Positions 13,514 through 24,764 of a stretch of DNA of 48,923 nucleotides are shown in pieces. Numbering within the stretch: the first letter of the stretch is position 1; each line of letters opens with the position of its first letter. Source of the stretch: Gemmatimonadota bacterium. Its GTDB lineage: Bacteria > Latescibacterota > UBA2968. The stretch covers positions 1 to 48,923 of the forward strand of contig VXRD01000102.1 of assembly GCA_009838845.1 (NCBI GenBank), written 5' to 3'. Below the pieces are notes generated by a model. It did not search any database. It was not told the origin of the DNA and saw only the letters and a list, made by a program, of their open reading frames with translations. Position numbers and translations under genes: made by a program.

Positions 13514-14491
13514 ATGACAATCTCCCTCGACCCCATCCGCGACGATCTGATCACCTGGGCAGAATCCCTCTACCTCCCGGACACGGGAGCCTTCCGCAAT
13601 GGCGACGCACCCGCGCCCAGCCTCCCGAGCACCCTCTTCATCACCTATATCCTGTACAGCATGGACGCGCTCGACGCAGTCGCGCTTGACCGCGCAAAAT
13701 GGATCGCCTGGATCCAATCGCAACAGAGCGAACAGGACGGATCCTTTGCCTTCCCGCCCTCAGACAATCCGCGCCGTGGAATCGCATTTTGGAACGCAGT
13801 TCGCGCACTCAACATACTAAGTGCTCAGGTCCTGAAATTCCCCGACGACCAGCGCAGCGCAACAACCATCACCGGACTCCGCCAATGGTTCAAAACGTGG
13901 AAAGCATCCGGCGACACCCATCACGAAGTCCTCGCGCGCGTACCCATGCTCGTCAGCCATCCAGACCCCGCCTGGGTCAACACATTCTTCGACGAACTCG
14001 CCGCACAACAGCACCCCGCGCTCGGAACCTGGCCCGGAGAAGGACCCACCAACATCAGCCGCACATTTGCCTACAGCCTGATCTACACGGGAATGGACAA
14101 ACTCCCACCGCAAGCTGAGAAAATCGTAGATGCCATGCTGCATCTCCAGGAGAAAAACGGCTTCTGGCACGGACGCCCCAACTTTTCAACCATGGACGCG
14201 GTCTATCTGCTATCGCGACTGCCAAAAGCCGCCGGGTGGCGCGAGACAGAAGCAAACGCCGCGCTACACCGCACAGCAGATGCGCTCATCCCCTATTACA
14301 AAGCGCACGCAAAACGCGACAAGCAGGACACCCATCAATTCGCGGCCACCGTACAAACACTCGCCCTGCTATCCGAAGCCTTGCCCCAGCGATTTGCAAC
14401 ATCGCACCCGTGGCGATTCGGATGGAGCAACAGGGCGTTCTGGCAATGCCGCGTGATCAAAAATTCATTAACTGCTGATAACGAGGTATAA
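13514..14491 (+). CDS. Alpha/alpha-toroid (terpene-cyclase/prenyltransferase-like) protein of unknown function
   Basis: A 325-aa helical protein with repeats of the QxxxGxW/F type: QQSEQDGSFAFPP near residue 70 and QEKNGFWHGRPNF near 215. These recall the QW-like turns of squalene-cyclase and prenyltransferase alpha/alpha toroids. No DxDD or DxDTA catalytic motif was found, so enzymatic cyclisation is unlikely. No signal peptide or membrane segment is seen. It ends the GC-rich plus-strand run; its last dozen codons (after FWQC) become AT-rich and lead straight into the defence island, so the native C-terminus may have been replaced at the island junction. Confidence 0.6.
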   Translation: MTISLDPIRDDLITWAESLYLPDTGAFRNGDAPAPSLPSTLFITYILYSMDALDAVALDRAKWIAWIQSQQSEQDGSFAFPPSDNPRRGIAFWNAVRALNILSAQVLKFPDDQRSATTITGLRQWFKTWKASGDTHHEVLARVPMLVSHPDPAWVNTFFDELAAQQHPALGTWPGEGPTNISRTFAYSLIYTGMDKLPPQAEKIVDAMLHLQEKNGFWHGRPNFSTMDAVYLLSRLPKAAGWRETEANAALHRTADALIPYYKAHAKRDKQDTHQFAATVQTLALLSEALPQRFATSHPWRFGWSNRAFWQCRVIKNSLTADNEV

Positions 14492-14514
14492 ATTAAAACG
14501 GAGGAATTATCTAC

Positions 14515-15825
14515 ATGGACATAATGGACATACTTTTAATTGTTGTTGTCGCAATAATCGTCGGGACAATCCTGTGGTTCCGGAAAATTCGACATCAACA
14601 AGTCAATGCTATTGCCTCAATTGTGACCGTCATCGGGGTGCTTGGAACATTTGCTGGTATCGCTTGGGGACTTTTAAACTTTGACACACAGAACATTGAA
14701 GCAAGTGTTCCCCTGTTGTTGGAAGGCCTAAAGTTTGCCTTTTTAACTTCCATTATAGGAATTGTAGGCTCGATTTGTCTTAAATTATCATCTCTAAACG
14801 AGCGGAAAAAACAAGCAGCGTCAGAGGAGACCTATACAGGCGCAACCATTGATGACCTTGCAAATATCCTACTGTTAATTCACAAAGTACATCAAGCAGA
14901 AGGAGACGAAACCAGGGAAACCCTCCGTGCTATAGAAAAAGCATTGACGGGAGATGGTGACAGCACCGTTTTGACTCAATTGCAAAAGTTGAGAACCACC
15001 TTCTCAGATAAGCAAGACGATTTACTTCAGGCCTTTAAAGAATTTGCGACTCATATGGCTGACAACAATACAAAAGCGCTAATTGAAGCACTTGAAGCCG
15101 TCATGCGGGACTTCAATGCAAAAATCAATGAGCAGTTTGGTGATAACTTTAAGCAACTCAATGAAGCGGTCGGAAGAATCAACGACTGGCAAGAACAGTA
15201 CCGTCAACAGATGGACGAACTGGCTGTGGAATTTCGGATTGCGGCAGAAAGCATCGAAAAATCACGTCAATCGCTGGAGAGTATTGCTGAACGAAGTGGT
15301 GTCATCGTTTCAAGCGCGGAAAAACTTGATCCCACACTTCAAGCAATACAACAGCAGATACAACTGATGAATAATCGTCTCGAGGCGTTTAGTGCGTTAG
15401 CTGATAATGCGAGTAACGCATTTCCAATCATTGAGAATCGGCTGAAACAATTAACCGATAACTTTACACAAGTGGTAGCAGAAAACATTGATAATTCGCA
15501 GGTTTCTATGGAAAGACAAAGAGAAGCCTTGACAAATCAAGCCCAACAACTTGAGACGATAGTGACAGACACAAACAGGCGACTCAATACCGAAACGGAG
15601 CGCATTTTCCGCGAAAGCACAGCCAATATGACCCAGCAAATCCAACTCCTGGATAGAGCACTTCAGGAAGAACTCACAAAATCCATTGAATCATTGGGAA
15701 GTCAACTTGCCAGTCTATCAAGACGATTTGTTGATGACTACTCGCCCCTAACGGATCAGCTTCGCAACGTAGTACGAATGGCAGATGGTTTACAACAAAC
15801 AGGTCGTTACCCACGACGCCAATAG
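14515..15825 (+). CDS. zorA: Zorya defence protein ZorA (MotA/TolQ/ExbB-type stator)
   Basis: Inner-membrane proton-channel subunit of the Zorya anti-phage system. Three hydrophobic helices lie in the first 95 residues: MDIMDILLIVVVAIIVG; AIASIVTVIGVLGTFAGIAW, whose LGTFAGIAWGLLNF is the MotA/ZorA signature; and LKFAFLTSIIGIVGSICL. A long tail (about 100-436) of amphipathic heptad-type helix follows, rich in Gln, Glu and Lys. This membrane-plus-cytoplasmic-rod layout is that of ZorA; plain MotA or ExbB lacks the tail. At 436 aa it is shorter than type I ZorA. A GGAGG site precedes the ATG. It is followed by zorB with a 9-nt gap. The AT-rich codon use differs from the genes to its left, so it was probably acquired. 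Confidence 0.88.
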   Translation: MDIMDILLIVVVAIIVGTILWFRKIRHQQVNAIASIVTVIGVLGTFAGIAWGLLNFDTQNIEASVPLLLEGLKFAFLTSIIGIVGSICLKLSSLNERKKQAASEETYTGATIDDLANILLLIHKVHQAEGDETRETLRAIEKALTGDGDSTVLTQLQKLRTTFSDKQDDLLQAFKEFATHMADNNTKALIEALEAVMRDFNAKINEQFGDNFKQLNEAVGRINDWQEQYRQQMDELAVEFRIAAESIEKSRQSLESIAERSGVIVSSAEKLDPTLQAIQQQIQLMNNRLEAFSALADNASNAFPIIENRLKQLTDNFTQVVAENIDNSQVSMERQREALTNQAQQLETIVTDTNRRLNTETERIFRESTANMTQQIQLLDRALQEELTKSIESLGSQLASLSRRFVDDYSPLTDQLRNVVRMADGLQQTGRYPRRQ

Positions 15826-15834
15826 GACAGGATG

Positions 15835-16560
15835 ATGAGTGAAGAAATTCTGACAAATAGAGAGCAAGATACGGAAGAACATTGGATCTCTATTTCTGAT
15901 ATGATGGCTGGATTGATGGTAATCTTCCTATTTATAGCCATTAGTTATATGCTGCATGTTCAAGCAGAAAAAGAAAAAATTGAGAAAATTGCTGTCACGT
16001 ATGAAAAATTGCAGTCCGACCTATATGCCGACCTTGAGAAAGAGTTTGAAAAAGACCTGAATAAATGGAACGCTGTCCTGGATAGACAAACTCTCTCTGT
16101 CCGGTTCAAAGAGCCTGAAGTGTTATTTGCACAAGGGGAAGCAGAGGTTCGTCCCGCCTTCAAAAACATCTTGAAGAATTTTTTTCCCCGTTATATTAAA
16201 GTTTTGAGGCAATCTGATTATATCAACGACATAGCGGAAATTCGTATTGAAGGACACACCTCAAGCGAATGGGAGACAGGCGTGAGTCCTGAAGAGGCTT
16301 ATATTCGTAATATGGAGTTATCACAGGACAGAACAAGACGTGTACTTCAATATGTACTTCTCCCCGAACTCAGTGGGAATCAGGAGATCAGGTATTGGCT
16401 GAAACAGTTCTTGACCGCCAATGGGTTATCTTCAAGCAAGGTGATTTCTTATCCTGATGGCACAGAAAATAAAGAAGAATCAAGACGAGTGGAGTTTAGA
16501 GTGCGGACGAATGCGGAGAAACGGATTGTTGAAATTATAAAGCGAGATAAAAAAGAATGA
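15835..16560 (+). CDS. zorB: Zorya defence protein ZorB (MotB/OmpA-like)
   Basis: Partner of ZorA that anchors the channel to peptidoglycan. Residues 18-40 form a single membrane helix carrying the conserved proton-path Asp22 (ISISDMMAGLMVIFLFIAIS). An OmpA-like peptidoglycan domain follows, with VLFAQGEAEVRPAFKNIL, IRIEGHTSSEWE and NMELSQDRTRRVLQYVL. The 241-aa length suits ZorB. The second of two adjacent ATGs (15835; the other is 15832) is better spaced from AGGACAGG. The stop overlaps the next start as ATGA (16557-16560), so zorB and the HNH gene are translationally coupled. Confidence 0.88.
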   Translation: MSEEILTNREQDTEEHWISISDMMAGLMVIFLFIAISYMLHVQAEKEKIEKIAVTYEKLQSDLYADLEKEFEKDLNKWNAVLDRQTLSVRFKEPEVLFAQGEAEVRPAFKNILKNFFPRYIKVLRQSDYINDIAEIRIEGHTSSEWETGVSPEEAYIRNMELSQDRTRRVLQYVLLPELSGNQEIRYWLKQFLTANGLSSSKVISYPDGTENKEESRRVEFRVRTNAEKRIVEIIKRDKKE

Positions 16561-17417
16561 ACCTGCCAGATTTTTCAAAACATGTTGGATTGAATCAACT
16601 TCGACAAAATATGGAAGCTGAACTGATCTCATGGAATTCAGGAGAAGAGTGGAATTCTATAAATATCGATAAAATTTTAGTTACAACAGGGATAGAGATC
16701 ACACCTGATGAAATTGAATATGCTGATGATGGCACACTTGAATACGGAGGACGAAAGGTCGTCGTTTATATCCGAGACCAATATGTGCCAGGTGACGCTA
16801 CTCGCGAACAGTTATACAAATTTCATGTTGCCGACTGTGATGCTCTACAGGAAATGAAAAAATTAAATAGGTACGAAAGATATGTGGTTACATATCGAAG
16901 GGATGGAAAATTTATTGTCAATCTTCTTGGGGAAAGCGGGTATCGCGATAAAGAGGAAGAGGTCGAGCGCAGGCTATATGTCTGTAAGTATTGCTTAGAC
17001 CGACTAAATTACAACGGTTACCGTAGGCGCGGATACTCGGGACAGAATGCAATCAGGGATTATTTCGACTTGAGAGCGTTTTTTGAAAGATATGATTCTC
17101 AAATAACAAGAGATCCGACGCATACTGACATTACAGCCCCAGTAAATACTTATCCGCCGAACTGGGAGCAAATTTCTTACAGATATAAAGAAAAGCGGAA
17201 CTGGAAATGTGAAGAGTGCGGCGTTAATCTTAGAGATGAGAGAAAGTTTCTTCACGTCCACCACATTAATGGTCAAAAGAACGACAGCAACGAAAAAAAT
17301 TTTCTTGCCTTGTGTATCGGCTGTCATGCAAACAAGCCTCAACACCATCAACTCAGATCCGATCCAGACTATAGGGAATACATGCGCTGGTTCAATCAAC
17401 CCAAAATGCCATTTTAA
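16557..17417 (+). CDS. zorE: HNH endonuclease, candidate Zorya type II effector ZorE
   Basis: A 286-aa protein with an unrecognised N-terminal domain (about 1-190) and a C-terminal HNH nuclease domain. The zinc and catalytic residues are visible: CEEC (two Cys), HVHHINGQKNDSNEKNF (catalytic His pair and Asn), then LCIGCHANKPQHH (second Cys pair and final His). It starts inside the zorB stop codon. Zorya type II systems consist of zorA, zorB and zorE, where ZorE is an HNH nuclease or nickase; gene order, coupling and domain match that definition. An alternative is that the HNH protein belongs to the convergent methyltransferase operon, but it lies on the other strand and is coupled to zorB. 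Confidence 0.72.
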   Translation: MNLPDFSKHVGLNQLRQNMEAELISWNSGEEWNSINIDKILVTTGIEITPDEIEYADDGTLEYGGRKVVVYIRDQYVPGDATREQLYKFHVADCDALQEMKKLNRYERYVVTYRRDGKFIVNLLGESGYRDKEEEVERRLYVCKYCLDRLNYNGYRRRGYSGQNAIRDYFDLRAFFERYDSQITRDPTHTDITAPVNTYPPNWEQISYRYKEKRNWKCEECGVNLRDERKFLHVHHINGQKNDSNEKNFLALCIGCHANKPQHHQLRSDPDYREYMRWFNQPKMPF

Positions 17418-17428
17418 AGGATAACGGC

Positions 17429-17680
17429 ATGAGAGTACGACAGCCGCGTTATAGCAAAGAGGAGTTCGCCCAGCGCGGTCAGGCGATTTATGAGCAACGA
17501 GTGAGGCCACAGGTGGAAGAAGGCAACAGCGGTAGGATTGTGGCGATTGATATTGAAACAGGCGAGTTCGAGGTAGCGGACGACCCACTTGCCGCATCTG
17601 ACCAACTTTTTGCGCGTTGTCCAGATGCGCAGCCGTGGTTAATCCGCATCGGCCACCGTGCGCTACATCGGTTTGGGTAG
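17429..17680 (+). CDS. Small conserved protein, possible TA-like or aspartic-protease-associated family
   Basis: An 83-aa protein reading MRVRQPRYSKEEFAQRGQAI, then GRIVAIDIETGEFEVADDPL and WLIRIGHRALHRFG. I recall this layout from a widespread small family (common in cyanobacteria) that often precedes a gene for a retropepsin-like clan AA aspartic protease; it is sometimes treated as an antitoxin-like partner. No such protease gene follows here, so it is an orphan. It lies 11 nt after the HNH gene with an AAAGGA site, and its codons are more GC-rich than those of zorABE. Function unknown. Confidence 0.65.
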   Translation: MRVRQPRYSKEEFAQRGQAIYEQRVRPQVEEGNSGRIVAIDIETGEFEVADDPLAASDQLFARCPDAQPWLIRIGHRALHRFG

Positions 17681-17721
17681 TTTCAGTTAGGGTTACTAAC
17701 TTGAAGTCCGTTTTTCGGTTT

Positions 17722-17738
17722 TTGGGTTCAAGACCCAA
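17722..17738. terminator. Weak hairpin between convergent operons
   Basis: TTGGGT and ACCCAA pair around a 5-nt loop between the plus-strand zor run and the minus-strand methyltransferase operon. The 17681-17821 gap is AT-rich, and this stem is the best candidate for a short bidirectional terminator. Only 6 bp long, so tentative. Confidence 0.35.
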
Positions 17739-17821
17739 TTCTAAGACAGTAATATCTTGATTTAGATCTAGGTTCTTGTGATCAAGATGCTTAGAGTGAT
17801 GAGGGATAAAACTCCAATGGA

Positions 17822-18646
17822 TTAGCAGTCACATGTTCTTTCGGCCATGTATTCCTTAACCCTTCTTGACGCGATATCACAGTATATTTTCTCTCTATCA
17901 CACGCCACAAAGCTCATTTGAGCTTCAACAGCCGAAATCAAAGAGGTACCAGATCCTACAAATGGATCAACCAATAGCCCGTTATTCAATCCGCTGATTT
18001 GAATAACACGTCGAGTCAATTCTAAAGGAAGCTCATTCTCAGCCCTCTTCTTGTGTTTTGCGTGTCGAACAGGACTCAAATCATCCCACACATCGCTGAG
18101 GTTTATTCCCGATTCAATATAGTGCTTGTACCCTCCATAATCTTTGATATATTTTCCACAACTTCTACACGTTGGCGCGGGAATTTTTGGTCGATTGAAT
18201 ACCTGTGGTTCTCCATTAGTGAGATACAGTAAGGCATAATGTGCAGGATACAGATATTTTCCTCGGACAAACCCGTTTTTCATTGTGACCGATATCCAAT
18301 GTCGAAATGTCAAATGTTGCTGAAGTAATGCACCAAATTTGATCGCCCATTGTGGCAAATGATACAAGTACAACGCACCACCTTCCTTCAGTTTTCTCAT
18401 TGAAGAGAATAGTACGCTTCTCATGAACTCCTCGTATTCAGATTCAGCGATCTTGTCCTCTTTTCTACTATTTGACCCATACTTCTTACCCAGATTAAAG
18501 GGTGGGTCGAGAAAAATGATATCTGCGCACCCATCCTTCAGACTATTCAAGAGCTTCAGTGCATCACACTTGATCAAAATGCCTTCATCTAACTTGCGTA
18601 TATATCCTGGAGGTTTACCCAACCATATTGATCGTTCTTTAGCCAT
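17822..18646 (-). CDS. DNA methyltransferase, class beta (N4-cytosine/N6-adenine)
   Basis: A SAM-dependent DNA methyltransferase of 274 aa. Motif IV, DPPF, lies at residues 47-50 (DIIFLDPPFNLGKKY). Motif I, FVGSGT, lies at 229-234 (LLVDPFVGSGTSLISA). Motif IV before motif I defines class beta, as in many type II and orphan N6-adenine or N4-cytosine enzymes. A CRSCGKY segment near the middle could be part of a target-recognition insert. The gene is last of three on the minus strand, 10 nt after the 331-aa unknown gene, and is AT-rich like the rest of the island. It probably protects host DNA from a nuclease activity linked to the operon. Confidence 0.9.
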   Translation of the reverse strand: MAKERSIWLGKPPGYIRKLDEGILIKCDALKLLNSLKDGCADIIFLDPPFNLGKKYGSNSRKEDKIAESEYEEFMRSVLFSSMRKLKEGGALYLYHLPQWAIKFGALLQQHLTFRHWISVTMKNGFVRGKYLYPAHYALLYLTNGEPQVFNRPKIPAPTCRSCGKYIKDYGGYKHYIESGINLSDVWDDLSPVRHAKHKKRAENELPLELTRRVIQISGLNNGLLVDPFVGSGTSLISAVEAQMSFVACDREKIYCDIASRRVKEYMAERTCDC

Positions 18647-18656
18647 TTGTTAAACC

Positions 18657-19652
18657 CTATAAAACCCGGTGATCCTCAATTTTTCCACTTTCAGTTACAA
18701 TCCCTGCCCCTGAAAATATGTCTCTGAGAGCAGATTTATATCGCGCATCAGGGGTCGCGGTTGCTTCACCTCTCCAAGTAAACTTGACTATCCAAGTAAC
18801 CATTGGAGCGTGTTCGCCATCTCCACCATAGCGCAAATTTCGTTCAGTAGAAACGCTCCAACCTTGGCTATGAACCAAGTCGGCAATGATCTTTGGTACC
18901 ATTACCATAATTACTTTCTGTTGATCTTGCCTATCAAGCACTGTAAAGTCCAACTCATTGCAATCTGAAATCTGCTCATATAGTGCGTCTTTGAAGAATT
19001 CTTTACAACTACGAGCGAAAACAGGTTCACGGCTTAAATTCTCTAATAAGAATTTTTTCATCCACCTATTGACTTCCTCTTTGACTTCCTCTGGCCAAAC
19101 CACTTCACCGTGAAGCGTTAAGCATAAGGTCCAATCATTTCTGGGAGACCTGGTATGTAGCTGGCAAAGTTTGCGTATCCAAGCCAAAACTGGGAACTTA
19201 ACACCTCCATTTTCTGGCATACCCTTCAACGGACTATTCAAGTCCAGATTCACAATATGCGCTCGGCAATATTTCTCATCCTCATCTCGAGGCCAGTTAA
19301 ACATATCTTCGCCTCTAACAATGCTCTGAAACGGAGCTTCCCTTATTCTTAATCCTACGAACTTTCTTTGTAATTGTAAAACAGATTCATTATTATTTTC
19401 AACAGCTACAACCTTATGCTGATCTTTTTCTTTAATGGATCCGACTTCCGTTAATGAAATGAGTTTCTGGTCAATAAGAAGCTCTATATCTCGTCCTTCG
19501 GCTCCACTCAACGTTAAATACCAAGGTACATCACTATCAGGATACTGCTCTGCTACTGATTTGACTTCCTCAAGCCAGAGAGAGCGGATGGTCAGTTTCT
19601 CGGCTCTATCTTCGTTCATTGCACGGTCTACCGGTCGAGAATGTCCATTCAC
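18657..19652 (-). CDS. Unknown defence-operon protein, possibly a degenerate methyltransferase fold
   Basis: A 331-aa protein not assigned to a family. Around residues 42-90 the order WYLTLSGAEGRDIELLID, then KVVAVENNNESVLQLQRKF, then HIVNLDLNSPL resembles the SAM-binding strands of a Rossmann methyltransferase (glycine loop, acidic end of strand 2, D-x-N strand 4), but no NPPY or other catalytic motif is clear. No membrane segment or signal is present. The GTG start overlaps the ATPase stop as GTGA, which supports coupled translation; an ATG at 19619 is an alternative. It lies between the GHKL ATPase and the methyltransferase genes, so it is either the missing nuclease or specificity subunit, or a structural partner. 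Confidence 0.72.
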   Translation of the reverse strand: MNGHSRPVDRAMNEDRAEKLTIRSLWLEEVKSVAEQYPDSDVPWYLTLSGAEGRDIELLIDQKLISLTEVGSIKEKDQHKVVAVENNNESVLQLQRKFVGLRIREAPFQSIVRGEDMFNWPRDEDEKYCRAHIVNLDLNSPLKGMPENGGVKFPVLAWIRKLCQLHTRSPRNDWTLCLTLHGEVVWPEEVKEEVNRWMKKFLLENLSREPVFARSCKEFFKDALYEQISDCNELDFTVLDRQDQQKVIMVMVPKIIADLVHSQGWSVSTERNLRYGGDGEHAPMVTWIVKFTWRGEATATPDARYKSALRDIFSGAGIVTESGKIEDHRVL

Positions 19653-21151
19653 TTTTTTAGTCGCTCCGTCAATCTCGATAAGAAATCTTCTAGCTGCCTT
19701 TGGCTAAGAACATCCTTTGCTGCTTCAACAACAACTTCGTACAATGAATTGACTGTAAATCTCTTTAGCAACTGCTTCTGGTTAGGTTCCTTTCTTGCGG
19801 TGTCAGACCAACTTTTCTTAATAGCACTTGCTGCTTTGGGTGAAACATCTGCGATCTGTTTGTCTGCGACATCACTAATCTTTTGTACAATATCTTGGGC
19901 TTTACTAACCTTCTGTTCTTTGCTTCTTTCACCGTATATTTCATTGCGTACACGTCTTATCAATTCAGGAATGTATTCGTGGACAGCTTGTTGGAGTTCA
20001 GTATATGCGAGATGTGATTCTCGCAACGTTCGTCTATCAATATTCATCGCATTTTCAAGTCGATCATCCGCCACAATTTCACCTGATATCCAAGCCTGAA
20101 ATAACGGTCCTGCACTGGAAGTAAAACCTAAGAAGCTAGGATCATATTCGCCAACAGCAGCATTTCGAATTCGAATCAACACTCCCTGTAATTCTTGAGG
20201 TCGGATCGTGCTATACTGAGCATAGAAGTATCCCTTAGCAGCGACATTTTTCCCTTTAAAATTGAATCGTGTAATTATAGTCTTTTCAGGTTCAGGCGGT
20301 GAAAAGACTATTGGTTTCCTAATTTCACTCCCGTCAATAAATAGTGAAAAGTCTAGTTCTGCAGCTTCCTTTTCTATATCCTTTACGCTTGATTTTAGGG
20401 TCGGCAAAATCCACTCATCATGATAAGCCACAGGAACATTTAAGCCGATTTTTAGCAGGTTTTGAGAATAAGCGTCAAAAGTATCCCAGCTTCTCAGGCC
20501 CTTCTCCGCTAATATTTTACACATTGAGGATGGAGATTTTCCGTATAGTGATTTTTTGCCTGCAGAAAACTCAGTGGTTCCGACACCAGCAAGAATGGGT
20601 TGAGCCTCGTCTCTTATTTGCTTTAAAAATATATGGGTATAGTGGCTATCTTTATCAGCATCTAAGGTCACAGCACCTTCGTAATCTGCCTTCGCAATCC
20701 CTCCGTTGTTACGCCTTCTTTCCTCCACATCCTGTCTCATAAGATCGAATCGAATTGAGACTTCCAATAGTTCTGTGCTTCCTTTCTTTGTTGACACAAT
20801 TTCCATAACATTGCAGATCTCATTGGCGGCAATAAATCCGATTCCTATTTTTCCAATCTTAGGTCGCCCCAATGGTGTTGTGTCAGATTCTTCACGCTTA
20901 TATGATTCACTTATCCGACTAAAATGCTTTTCGAACTCGTCCTTGTTAAGCCCAAACCCATCATCCTCAATTATTATGCGATCTGCATCAGGTTTAACAA
21001 ATACGTTTACACGCTTTGCATCAGCATCAAAAGAATTGTTTATCAACTCTTTCAAACAGGCTGCTGGAGACTCGTATAGTCCGGAACTCAGGTACTCAAC
21101 TATACGAGATGCCACTACTATCTCGCCCTTGAATTTGTCTTCATCAGCCAT
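19649..21151 (-). CDS. GHKL ATPase (MORC/MutL/Hsp90-like) of a methyltransferase-linked operon
   Basis: A 500-aa ATPase. The Bergerat fold is at the N-terminus: N box with Glu35 and Asn39 (ACLKELINNSFDADAKRV), G1 box DDGFG at 63-67, G2 box GRPKIGKIGIGFIAA at 95-109. The middle and C-terminal regions (residues about 250-500) are of unknown fold and Lys/Glu-rich at the end. GHKL ATPases of the MORC/MutL type are known from predicted restriction-modification systems that encode a DNA methyltransferase, where the ATPase is thought to act as an ATP-gated DNA clamp. First gene of the three-gene minus-strand operon; an AGGATGA site precedes the ATG. Cytoplasmic. Confidence 0.85.
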   Translation of the reverse strand: MADEDKFKGEIVVASRIVEYLSSGLYESPAACLKELINNSFDADAKRVNVFVKPDADRIIIEDDGFGLNKDEFEKHFSRISESYKREESDTTPLGRPKIGKIGIGFIAANEICNVMEIVSTKKGSTELLEVSIRFDLMRQDVEERRRNNGGIAKADYEGAVTLDADKDSHYTHIFLKQIRDEAQPILAGVGTTEFSAGKKSLYGKSPSSMCKILAEKGLRSWDTFDAYSQNLLKIGLNVPVAYHDEWILPTLKSSVKDIEKEAAELDFSLFIDGSEIRKPIVFSPPEPEKTIITRFNFKGKNVAAKGYFYAQYSTIRPQELQGVLIRIRNAAVGEYDPSFLGFTSSAGPLFQAWISGEIVADDRLENAMNIDRRTLRESHLAYTELQQAVHEYIPELIRRVRNEIYGERSKEQKVSKAQDIVQKISDVADKQIADVSPKAASAIKKSWSDTARKEPNQKQLLKRFTVNSLYEVVVEAAKDVLSQRQLEDFLSRLTERLKK

Positions 21152-21185
21152 TGGTAATCATCCTAATAGTGCCAGCCATATATAA

Positions 21186-21702
21186 AATCACTATATATTG
21201 AATCCGATACTGGCACCCATATTGATGGATTTGTAATTTTGAACAATCCAGCCTACCTGCAGAAGATACTGCAAGTATTCAAGTCTATTGGGAAATATCC
21301 TTGCATGACTTTTTGAAGTTCGATAGTTTGAGATGACATAGACCTGTGCCTTGTTGTGCTGAGAAAGGCCAGTTTTGGGTGATTTAAACCTAACTTTTTT
21401 TAGTAATTTTCACAGGTCTTTTAGTTTTTAATTTACCTTTCACATATAGCCAAATTTTGGGACACACGCAAGGGCAATTTCTGACTATAATTGTAGCGAA
21501 CCCTAAAAAACCGGCCTGTGAATGACCTGCATATCTCTTATCTATCCCATCACCGACGAAGGCGCAACGCCAATTAATGAAAACTGGATTGCGGCTCAAA
21601 ACCATGCCGCAATGACGGGGAACAGGTCGATATGGACAGCCTTATTTGACGCGGTGTACTAACCGCCCATTATACACACACCAGCACAGGAGCGCATCAC
21701 CC
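21186..21702. other. Island right flank and leader of the MR-family gene
   Basis: About 500 bp without a convincing gene. The left part to about 21510 is AT-rich like the island and should contain the promoter of the ATPase operon. From about 21515 the composition returns to that of the host genome. A REP-like hairpin lies at 21584-21616 and a CAGGAG ribosome site at 21686-21691. A 46-codon frame across the hairpin is probably chance. Confidence 0.6.
21584..21616. repeat. REP-like hairpin, copy B
   Basis: Stem ATTGCGGC (21588-21595) pairs with GCCGCAAT (21606-21613). Sequence and flanks (CTGG on the left, GAC on the right) match copy A at 123-154. It sits where island composition ends and host composition resumes. 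Confidence 0.8.
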
Positions 21703-23015: not shown

Positions 23016-24305
23016 GTGGATAAGCTGAATATTTTTGAAGGCTACTTGAGCAAGCAGCCAGGTACGGAAGACCGCCTTACCTGGGCTTTAATGAACCTGA
23101 TACGCATCTCGCCAATCATTCGTGCGGCATTTTTGGATCTCGTCCGGGACGAGCAGAAGCAACCGATACCTGCATTAACGGCCTTAAGAGAGCGTGAATG
23201 TGTCGTTCAAACCCAGACTGAAAATCTGTTCGCACAGGAAGGACGCCTTGTGGCTATTGGGATCACCGCCGAGGGAGAGGATGTCTATGACGATGTCCAG
23301 CTGGAGGATAGAGGAGCAAGATACGACGGCGTAGTGACCTTTATCGCACCAGAGAACCGGCGGCATCAGCAGGAGAGTTTGACCCTCACCGTTGAGAGCA
23401 AACGCGATTCTGAGGTCGAAGCGTGGCAGTTGATGCCGAGTGAGGCGAGTTTAGGCGAGGAGGGACAGATTAAAGTGGATTCGCAGGCCGTAATTTTGGC
23501 ATGGCGAGATATCGTCAGTACCCTTACGGACATTGAACTAAGAGGGTTGGTCAGCCCAGCAGAGAGGGTGTTCATCCGAGACTTCATTGATTATGTTGCA
23601 GCCAACCATTCAGTGCTCAATCCATTTGAGCACTTCGCGGTGTGTAGGAACGATCTCGACCTACTGAATCGGCGATGCGAAATGATCCTGCGGGAGATTG
23701 ACCCAACTGAGGCAGAGCAGGGACCGTTGCCTTTCATCCCTGTGGAATTTCCTTCTTACAAGCGGATCTATCTAAAGGCCAAGGATGATGCAAGATCATG
23801 GAGGATTACGCTTGAGTTTTGGCCGGGAGATACTGTGGCACAGGCACAGGAGTTCTGGTCGAAGGTTGACGCCAAAAAGCTCTTGGCGTTGCAGAACCAG
23901 AACGAAGATTGGCGACTGGTGTCGAATCTGCACTTCATGCACTGGAGTAATCGATGCTCGGCGACTACGTCGCTTGCAGTAAACGAATACATTGAGTTCT
24001 GGCAGTCAGGCGAGATGAAGATTGACTCTATATGGCCTGATGATGCCGGCTCTTATCGTTATCACTGGGATTGTCTGGTCGCTAAAAGTCTGATTTCTCC
24101 TGATGACATGGAGCCAATTGAAGCAGTAAGAACCGAGAAGAACCGCCCCTGGATCTCCATGTCACCCGGCCTCGGTATTAGCTACACCTGGTCGGCGGCG
24201 CGGGCATCCCAACTCGATAGGGATGGTGCCTTCGTGTTTGAGGTCAAAGAAAAGATCCGTGAGGCGACCGAGACCTGGGGGGAAGTTCCCGATTTCTGTA
24301 GTTAA
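23016..24305 (+). CDS. Predicted PD-(D/E)xK-type nuclease
   Basis: A 429-aa protein not matched to a named family, but the N-terminal 130 residues carry a PD-(D/E)xK pattern: helix Glu18 (PGTEDRLTWALMNLI), Asp104 in RYDGVVTF, then Glu127-x-Lys129 in LTVESKR. The ED-RLTWAL opening followed by D-G and ESK resembles defence-linked restriction-type nucleases. The remaining 300 residues include Trp-rich segments and no recognised domain. The start is GTG with a strong GGAGGAG site. It lies just inside the left inverted repeat; the second gene follows after 78 nt. Likely a host-defence or toxin-like nuclease; no methyltransferase accompanies it, so self-protection would need another mechanism. Confidence 0.66.
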   Translation: MDKLNIFEGYLSKQPGTEDRLTWALMNLIRISPIIRAAFLDLVRDEQKQPIPALTALRERECVVQTQTENLFAQEGRLVAIGITAEGEDVYDDVQLEDRGARYDGVVTFIAPENRRHQQESLTLTVESKRDSEVEAWQLMPSEASLGEEGQIKVDSQAVILAWRDIVSTLTDIELRGLVSPAERVFIRDFIDYVAANHSVLNPFEHFAVCRNDLDLLNRRCEMILREIDPTEAEQGPLPFIPVEFPSYKRIYLKAKDDARSWRITLEFWPGDTVAQAQEFWSKVDAKKLLALQNQNEDWRLVSNLHFMHWSNRCSATTSLAVNEYIEFWQSGEMKIDSIWPDDAGSYRYHWDCLVAKSLISPDDMEPIEAVRTEKNRPWISMSPGLGISYTWSAARASQLDRDGAFVFEVKEKIREATETWGEVPDFCS

Positions 24306-24383
24306 GAGGTAGTCCTTGAACTGATGCCATTGCCGGCGTGATGAGCTTCCAAACCGAATTTTTTTATGACGAAATGCCCAATT

Positions 24384-24764
24384 ATGGATATTAAACCCAT
24401 CAAAACCGAATCAGACCATGAAGCCGCTTTGAGAGAGATCGAACGGCTTTGGGGAGCAACTCATGGTTCGCCAGAAGGTGATAAACTCGATGTTTTGGTC
24501 ACGCTCGTTGAAGTTTATGAACAGAAGCACTACCCTATCCCGCCACCGGATCCAATTGAGGCAATCCTTCACCACATGGAGAGTCAAGGTTTATCTCATC
24601 GTGATCTTGAACCCTATCTGGGTTCAGGCACCAGTGTGTCAGAGGTTTTGAATCGAAAATGCTCACTGTCACTGAACATGATTCGCAAGTTGCATAAGGG
24701 TCTTGGAATTTCGGCGGATATTTTGGTTCAGCCTTATGAGTGCTCTTTGAAAAAAATTTATTGA
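24384..24764 (+). CDS. HigA-like HTH antitoxin without HigB
   Basis: A 126-aa HigA-type regulator. The start at 24384 gives the family opening MDIKPIKTESDHEAALREIE; an ATG 6 codons upstream has no better ribosome site. The C-terminal half is an XRE-like helix-turn-helix (GLSHRDLEPYLGSGTSVSEVLNRKCSLS shortened here as HRDLEPYLGSGTSVSEVL). HigA is normally preceded by the ribosome-dependent RNase HigB, which is absent; the preceding gene encodes a PD-(D/E)xK-like nuclease. The last four codons lie inside the right inverted repeat, so the repeat is part of the gene's end. It may regulate or neutralise the nuclease. Role inferred. Confidence 0.8.
   Translation: MDIKPIKTESDHEAALREIERLWGATHGSPEGDKLDVLVTLVEVYEQKHYPIPPPDPIEAILHHMESQGLSHRDLEPYLGSGTSVSEVLNRKCSLSLNMIRKLHKGLGISADILVQPYECSLKKIY

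Follow-up and report, generated by a model that had tools for sequence, protein, structure and literature searches.

Do three tightly coupled genes encoding a GHKL ATPase, a 331-amino acid (aa) protein, and a DNA methyltransferase (MTase) constitute an undescribed restriction-modification (R-M)-like system, and, if so, would such a system cut DNA or exclude it by other means? This question is raised by positions 17,822 to 21,151 of contig VXRD01000102.1 of a Gemmatimonadota bacterium (assembly GCA_009838845.1), of which a stretch of 48,923 nucleotides is hereafter called the window. The original prediction had placed here an ATPase, an unknown protein, and a class-beta MTase joined by a GTGA overlap and a 10-nucleotide (nt) gap, and all three open reading frames were found intact at this place (Table 1), with the gene for the 331-aa protein, referred to here as the partner, lying 10 nt from the MTase gene. 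Across relatives, the ATPase and partner are a widespread two-gene core with an exchangeable MTase, a point that the original prediction did not contain, nor did it place the locus in an insertion next to Zorya II, and on a modest balance of probability we regard the trio as an undescribed R-M-like exclusion module.

Table 1 Features of the trio and of the island that carries it, in window coordinates
Feature	Position	Strand	Remarks
GHKL (paraMORC-like) ATPase gene	21151 to 19649	minus	500 aa, ATG start, open frame
331-aa partner gene	19652 to 18657	minus	GTG start, open frame
Beta-class N4/N6 DNA MTase gene	18646 to 17822	minus	274 aa, ATG start, open frame
GTGA stop/start overlap (ATPase stop with partner start)	19649..19652	minus
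Inserted low-GC defense island (Zorya II and trio)	14461..21657		about 7.2 kb; empty sites in congeneric genomes
Zorya type II system (ZorA2, ZorB2, ZorE HNH)	14515..17417	plus	PADLOC; convergent with the trio, not part of it

The partner matches the uncharacterized NCBIfam family NF047698 (PP_RS20740 family) distantly and collinearly (38.2 bits, E 1e-9, with a cut-off of 200 bits), and this family pointed to a genome of a different phylum in which the gene for an NF047698 protein lies 3 nt after that of a GHKL ATPase and a cytosine-C5 (C5) methylase is encoded alongside. An alignment of the two ATPases retrieved prophage cassettes consisting of a C5 MTase, the ATPase, and an NF047698 protein, and the ATPase alignment enlarged with these was searched against 84,980 species genomes, yielding a graded ATPase family. 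Single-sequence scans of viral contigs with the ATPase or the partner gave no matches, and tblastn of the partner in plasmids gave none; it took the alignment of two ATPases to bring the relatives to light. The closest ATPase relatives have 43-68% identity and come from seven other phyla, with sources that include Desulfobacterota-type metagenome-assembled genomes, Longilinea (Chloroflexota), Bryobacterales, a gemmatimonadete, a planctomycete, a cyanobacterium, and several actinomycetes; many of the relatives are metagenome assemblies, and cultured ones include Longilinea arvoryzae and Nonomuraea wenchangensis. Wherever the sequence downstream of a close ATPase relative could be read (ten loci), the next gene belongs to the 331-aa family, in most cases overlapping by the same 4 nt, a coupling far beyond chance (L-numbers denote loci of relatives and G-numbers the genomes compared; the -4 spacing recurs in L076, L077, L078, L079, L082, and L095). 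Likewise, an N4/N6 MTase is adjacent in 9/9 close relatives with enough flanking sequence, being of the window's DPPF type in L076, L077, L080, L084, and L095 and of other, SPPY types in L078, L081, L082, and L092. The ATPase frame is broken in L084, and the sequence of L079 stops within the partner gene; L079 or L095 may be mis-binned, since the two are nearly identical yet assigned to different phyla. This gene-neighborhood survey bears out the co-conservation of the trio across phyla.

The two-gene core extends well beyond these close relatives. Iterated profile searches join the 331-aa protein with NF047698 proteins of 380-430 aa, Bacteroidetes proteins of 290-300 aa, and forms of 242-250 aa, and members of this partner superfamily essentially always adjoin a GHKL ATPase. 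Among 95 ATPase loci, the partner is adjacent in 78, a contig end cuts the locus in seven, and the partner is absent from ten (78/88 informative loci). In a mirror-tree comparison of 73 pairs, ATPase and partner distances gave r = 0.956, against a maximum of 0.25 in 1000 label permutations; shared organismal history is not removed by this comparison, an objection made weak by the horizontal spread across phyla. Such strict adjacency and co-divergence show the partnership of the two proteins. Of 77 partner-bearing loci, 64 have a DNA MTase nearby (40 C5, 16 PF01555, four of another SPPY group, and six D12, some loci having two), and the class (DPPF, SPPY, C5, or D12) and side (upstream or downstream) of the MTase vary while the ATPase-partner pair stays, even in the closest clade. 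As the same core serves MTases of different classes, it would have no fixed specificity of its own, probably borrowing it from the MTase or its mark. In the clustering of all neighbors, no third gene and no nuclease was common to the whole family. PP_RS20740 proteins share the position behind a GHKL ATPase (seen in the window, G068, and the prophage loci), an association that is not in the NCBIfam definition, and differ from the window partner in their length of 380-430 aa and in occurring with C5 MTases. That family is without known function, having surfaced only in a furfural-tolerance screen (PMC9630843).

Genes for the Vsr nicking endonuclease are found in 13 of 40 partner-bearing loci with a C5 MTase and are absent from the remaining 37, which include the window's clade. 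As a general effector Vsr was rejected, for it tracks C5 MTases only. The same counts bear on the idea that the core is a MutL/Vsr-like repair accessory, correcting lesions made by the neighboring MTase, an idea in keeping with the Vsr genes of the C5 loci and with the relatedness of the ATPase to MutL. The complete absence of Vsr from the 37 loci without a C5 MTase speaks against it, as does the fact that N4/N6 MTases create no 5-methylcytosine deamination problem, and we consider a repair role very unlikely.

The ATPase itself matches Pfam HATPase_c_3 (E 2.2e-18), and its E35, N39, D42, DxGxG, and IGxxGxG columns are invariant in 40 relatives. Its AlphaFold2 model (predicted local distance difference test (pLDDT) score of 88.7) contains an N-terminal GHKL domain, an S5-like middle domain, a long helix at residues 381-433, and a small helical C-terminal bundle, and Foldseek matches of this model included MORC2/MORC3 (with DNA-bound MORC2 among them) and Hsp90/TRAP1. 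About 450 residues aligned to MORC2/MORC3 and TRAP1 with a template modeling (TM) score of about 0.5, a fold resemblance in which the S5-like second domain is present. The model thus depicts a MORC/Hsp90-like protein without a nuclease domain: none was seen in the model or by motif, the C-terminus being made of helices, and a PD-ExK-like pattern is absent from residues 380-500, and MutL DQHA, HNH, and HKD motifs were likewise not found. A pattern search of its 500 residues also found no MORC-specific S5 motif (GhXhhpXXRhl). The view of this locus as an ATP-gated GHKL/MORC-like protein paired with a DNA methylase is supported, as is the co-conservation of the three genes across phyla.

Through its GHKL domain, the ATPase comes closest to the curated family of HgiDII/BbrUII restriction enzymes (NF050001; 92.6 bits over residues 17-183 of 500). 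Membership was rejected, as the score falls short of the 550-bit cut-off, the match is not full-length, and there is no C-terminal nuclease. The N-terminal GHKL domain aligns with those of HgiDII/BbrUII and of the paraMORC3/Shedu-type VcSduA (PMC12137116), and a methylase is the usual neighbor of HgiDII-type enzymes, as in the trio; however, both HgiDII/BbrUII and VcSduA carry a fused C-terminal nuclease where the window ATPase ends in helices. These enzymes lend some credit to an alternative in which the ATPase and partner form a true restriction endonuclease, with an unrecognized site in the partner or in the ATPase C-terminus, and the trio a new type II-like R-M system. The gene layout is R-M-like, and HgiDII/BbrUII and paraMORC3 GHKL proteins, with their fused nuclease, do work with a DNA methylase (PMC12137116, PMC2292703). 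The missing PD-ExK, DQHA, HNH, and HKD motifs count against a cutter of this kind, and a single core accompanied by MTases of different class is hard to square with fixed cutting specificity. The cognate nuclease of a type II R-M system was sought by family, motif, and fold, and none was found; the original prediction had likewise seen no obvious nuclease motif in any of the three proteins.

The partner provides the further evidence on this point. Pfam, PADLOC, and PHROGs returned no match for the 331-aa protein, and PADLOC 2.0.0 (2023) is without a model of its family, the 48 relatives giving only stray single-member matches (E 0.001-0.01). Its AlphaFold2 model, built with 48 relatives in the alignment, is of high quality (pLDDT 94.2, predicted TM score 0.92), and its best Foldseek matches in the PDB and a viral library are nearly all class I S-adenosylmethionine (AdoMet) MTases, including KsgA, type I modification subunits, and METTL5 (E about 1e-3, TM-scores 0.3-0.5). 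Residues W26, N135, and D137 are kept in 48/48 members and T179 in 47 (Ser in one), position 55 is an acid (D/E) across the 48, and N135-L-D137 sits at a strand end where class I MTases keep catalytic motif IV. Motif I is degenerate; the close clade of the partner invariably has Gly50 and Glu85, which could plausibly belong to a cofactor site, and about half of the wider family has lost Glu85. On this model, the partner is read as a divergent or inactive class I AdoMet-MTase-like Rossmann fold. A TOPRIM reading of its GxEGxxD stretch was rejected for lack of conservation of the Glu, and an identity as Response_reg_2 was rejected by Pfam, which gave no match. The original prediction had offered two options, a new nuclease in the form of the 331-aa protein or a system that blocks DNA without cutting. 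The first fell on fold, motifs, and conservation, as the protein has a class I MTase-like fold and its near-invariant polar residues are only N135, D137, T179, and D/E55, with no nuclease signature, and the endonuclease alternative is unlikely on the same grounds. The second option, or else the recruitment of a nuclease of the host, is now the more likely.

With MTase folds in two of the three proteins, one might instead suppose a modification complex in which the partner serves as an additional or accessory MTase and the ATPase remodels DNA, the outcome being regulation or self-marking and not defense. The invariant Gly50 and Glu85 of the close clade would suit such a role; the degenerate motif I and the loss of Glu85 elsewhere would not, and a sporadic, mobile distribution in islands fits defense better than regulation, leaving this arrangement improbable.

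The third protein of the trio matches Pfam N6_N4_Mtase (PF01555; E 1.7e-27) and carries DPPF at residues 47-50 followed by DPFVGSGT at residues 227-234; because motif IV (DPPF) precedes motif I (DPFVGSGT), it belongs to the beta class. Plasmid relatives, with up to 43% identity, include MTases of BamHI-type systems, one of them beside a gene annotated as BamHI. A GGATCC-like specificity was considered from these relatives and is not claimed.

Known systems resemble the trio in part. The prediction of paraMORC ATPases encoded close to DNA methylases dates from 2008 (Iyer, Abhiman and Aravind, PMC2292703), and the predicted R-M systems in the main text of that paper are similar to the trio in having a GHKL and S5-like ATPase beside a DNA methylase, in their sporadic and mobile occurrence, and in the looping or clamping proposed for them. 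The partners named in that text are helicases and restriction endonuclease-fold, HNH, or Vsr nucleases, and the partner gene could be present unlabeled in its figures; the trio, in contrast, has no helicase or nuclease, its constant partner is an MTase-fold protein, and its ATPase lacks the MORC-specific motif. BREX also utilizes a DNA MTase to mark self and ATPase-based machinery to keep out DNA lacking the mark, with no restriction-type nuclease in the classical form, but the trio has three genes with different ATPase and MTase families, and no Brx/Pgl component (PglZ, BrxC, or PglX) was found among the ten window proteins scanned (the trio and seven others). MZA-like systems (PMC9523054) differ from the trio in their partner or in having a nuclease. 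The HEF_HK/Response_reg_2 pair (PMC8011034) is similar in overall layout, an unknown gene coming after a GHKL gene in the vicinity of R-M genes, including a DNA methylase, which could suggest that the trio harbors a two-component-like signaling pair as proposed there. The partner fold differs, being that of an MTase and not of a receiver in our model, and neither PF19191 nor PF19192 matched the window proteins (E up to 0.1) or the tested relatives (E up to 1), so that a signaling pair is barely credible here. Neither of the findings that would have refuted the original prediction was made: PADLOC 2.0.0 has no model for the partner family, and the ATPase and a methylase do occur together. Full-text literature searches, whose coverage of subscription journals is poor, found no paper describing the ATPase-partner pair.

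How might an R-M-like exclusion module of this composition work? The beta-class MTase, judging from its family, would mark host DNA at its own site. The ATPase and its obligate MTase-fold partner would be in physical contact and form the effector core, in which the partner may be a DNA- or mark-reading subunit or an inactive or specialized MTase. This core would be steered to unmodified sites by the cognate MTase or its mark, an arrangement closer to type I R-M or BREX than to type II R-M. When incoming DNA is unmodified, the GHKL dimer would close on it as a clamp upon binding ATP, a step suggested by the MORC/Hsp90-like fold together with the lack of a shared nuclease, and the clamp would then block transcription or replication or recruit a host nuclease. 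Eukaryotic MORC-1 entraps and condenses DNA (PMC8277788), which makes non-nucleolytic exclusion plausible. A stronger proposal, in which a MORC-like clamp, a pseudo-MTase reader, and interchangeable modification enzymes trap unmarked DNA in a nuclease-free, methylation-gated form of silencing, is possible and put forward tentatively; it would be the functional equivalent, in bacteria, of MORC silencing in eukaryotes.

Several points weigh against an exclusion module. A defense function of the trio is suggested by association and homology, and the same is true for all other members of the family. Clamping without cutting derives from a modeled fold resemblance, a host nuclease or an unrecognized catalytic site may take part, and that swapped MTases act at different sites is an expectation from their classes. 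In addition, no MTase was found within about 6 kb in the partner-bearing loci L102, L118, L136, L139, L141, and L155, some of which have short flanks. The MTase-less loci L091 and L097 carry phosphorothioation-type genes instead (Pbe in L091 and Dnd/Mad-like in L097), and a type I MTase is encoded further along in L093. Should the module be real, it would be an unnamed defense module whose compact form spans at least eight bacterial phyla and which has relatives in archaea, Bacteroidetes, and prophages. Such a module would offer a small, testable system for the role of bacterial MORC-like ATPases, a question dating from the 2008 prediction, and would bear on whether ATP-driven clamping can exclude DNA without cutting. 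Its core, pairing with different modification enzymes, would amount to a modular self/non-self reader.

Additional observations were made around the relatives, among whose neighbors are GmrSD-like, type I R-M, and Pbe genes. ATPase relatives lie beside phosphorothioation-type genes (DndA/DndC/DndD-like, PbeC, and Mad8/DndH-like) in L096 (5959-12669), L091 (3684-8036), L097 (2280-7593), and L130 (2817-3836), as if phosphorothioation were able to replace methylation at such loci. Another paraMORC-like GHKL gene is followed by two related genes in L053 (5374-10244), L045 (3926-7376), L132 (2165-7386), and L144 (62-3694); by eye these two resemble radical-SAM genes, and the two tested had no Pfam match. 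Genes related to them directly follow the partner gene in L093 and L099, the L093 copy matching Pfam Radical_SAM, and a link of these radical-SAM-like genes to unusual DNA modification is possible. An Hsp90-like GHKL gene with a weak PADLOC match to TmtA accompanies a partner-superfamily member of 283-286 aa in L053 (10254-12724) and L045 (161-2367). The flanks of the Bacteroidetes loci L087, L088, L089, and L090 share a gene of about 250 aa that by eye resembles the uracil-DNA-glycosylase superfamily, and L087, L089, and L090 also share one of about 595 aa; the flank genes tested from these four loci had no Pfam or PADLOC match.

Finally, the trio resides in a block with a GC content of about 41-43%, compared to 55-59% in its neighborhood, that it shares with a complete-looking Zorya system (ZorA2 E 2e-106, ZorB2 E 2e-98, and ZorE2 E 7e-82 in PADLOC). 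The genes flanking the island have 92-97% identity in most congeneric genomes, and in four of these (G001, G002, G003, and G006) homology ends at about 14461 and returns at about 21658; therefore, the block is an insertion. In 194 genomes from around the genus of the window there was no second copy of the 331-aa protein, and no close ATPase relative turned up in 64 genomes of the phylum. Elsewhere in the window (23016-24764), a 429-aa protein without a family match is followed by a 132-aa HigA-type-antitoxin lookalike without a Pfam match. At the site of the island, the congeneric G010 carries a ZorA-like gene 90% identical to that of the window without the trio, and in G007 the site is occupied by a block of about 20 kb that opens with an HmaA-like helicase gene. 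Such differing cargo marks this as a variable defense spot at which the trio and Zorya are separable units. Further cargo at the same chromosomal site in congeners includes a 533-aa AAA-type ATPase (L158 2418-4019; L159 1317-2918) and a helix-turn-helix antitoxin-like protein (L158 212-598).

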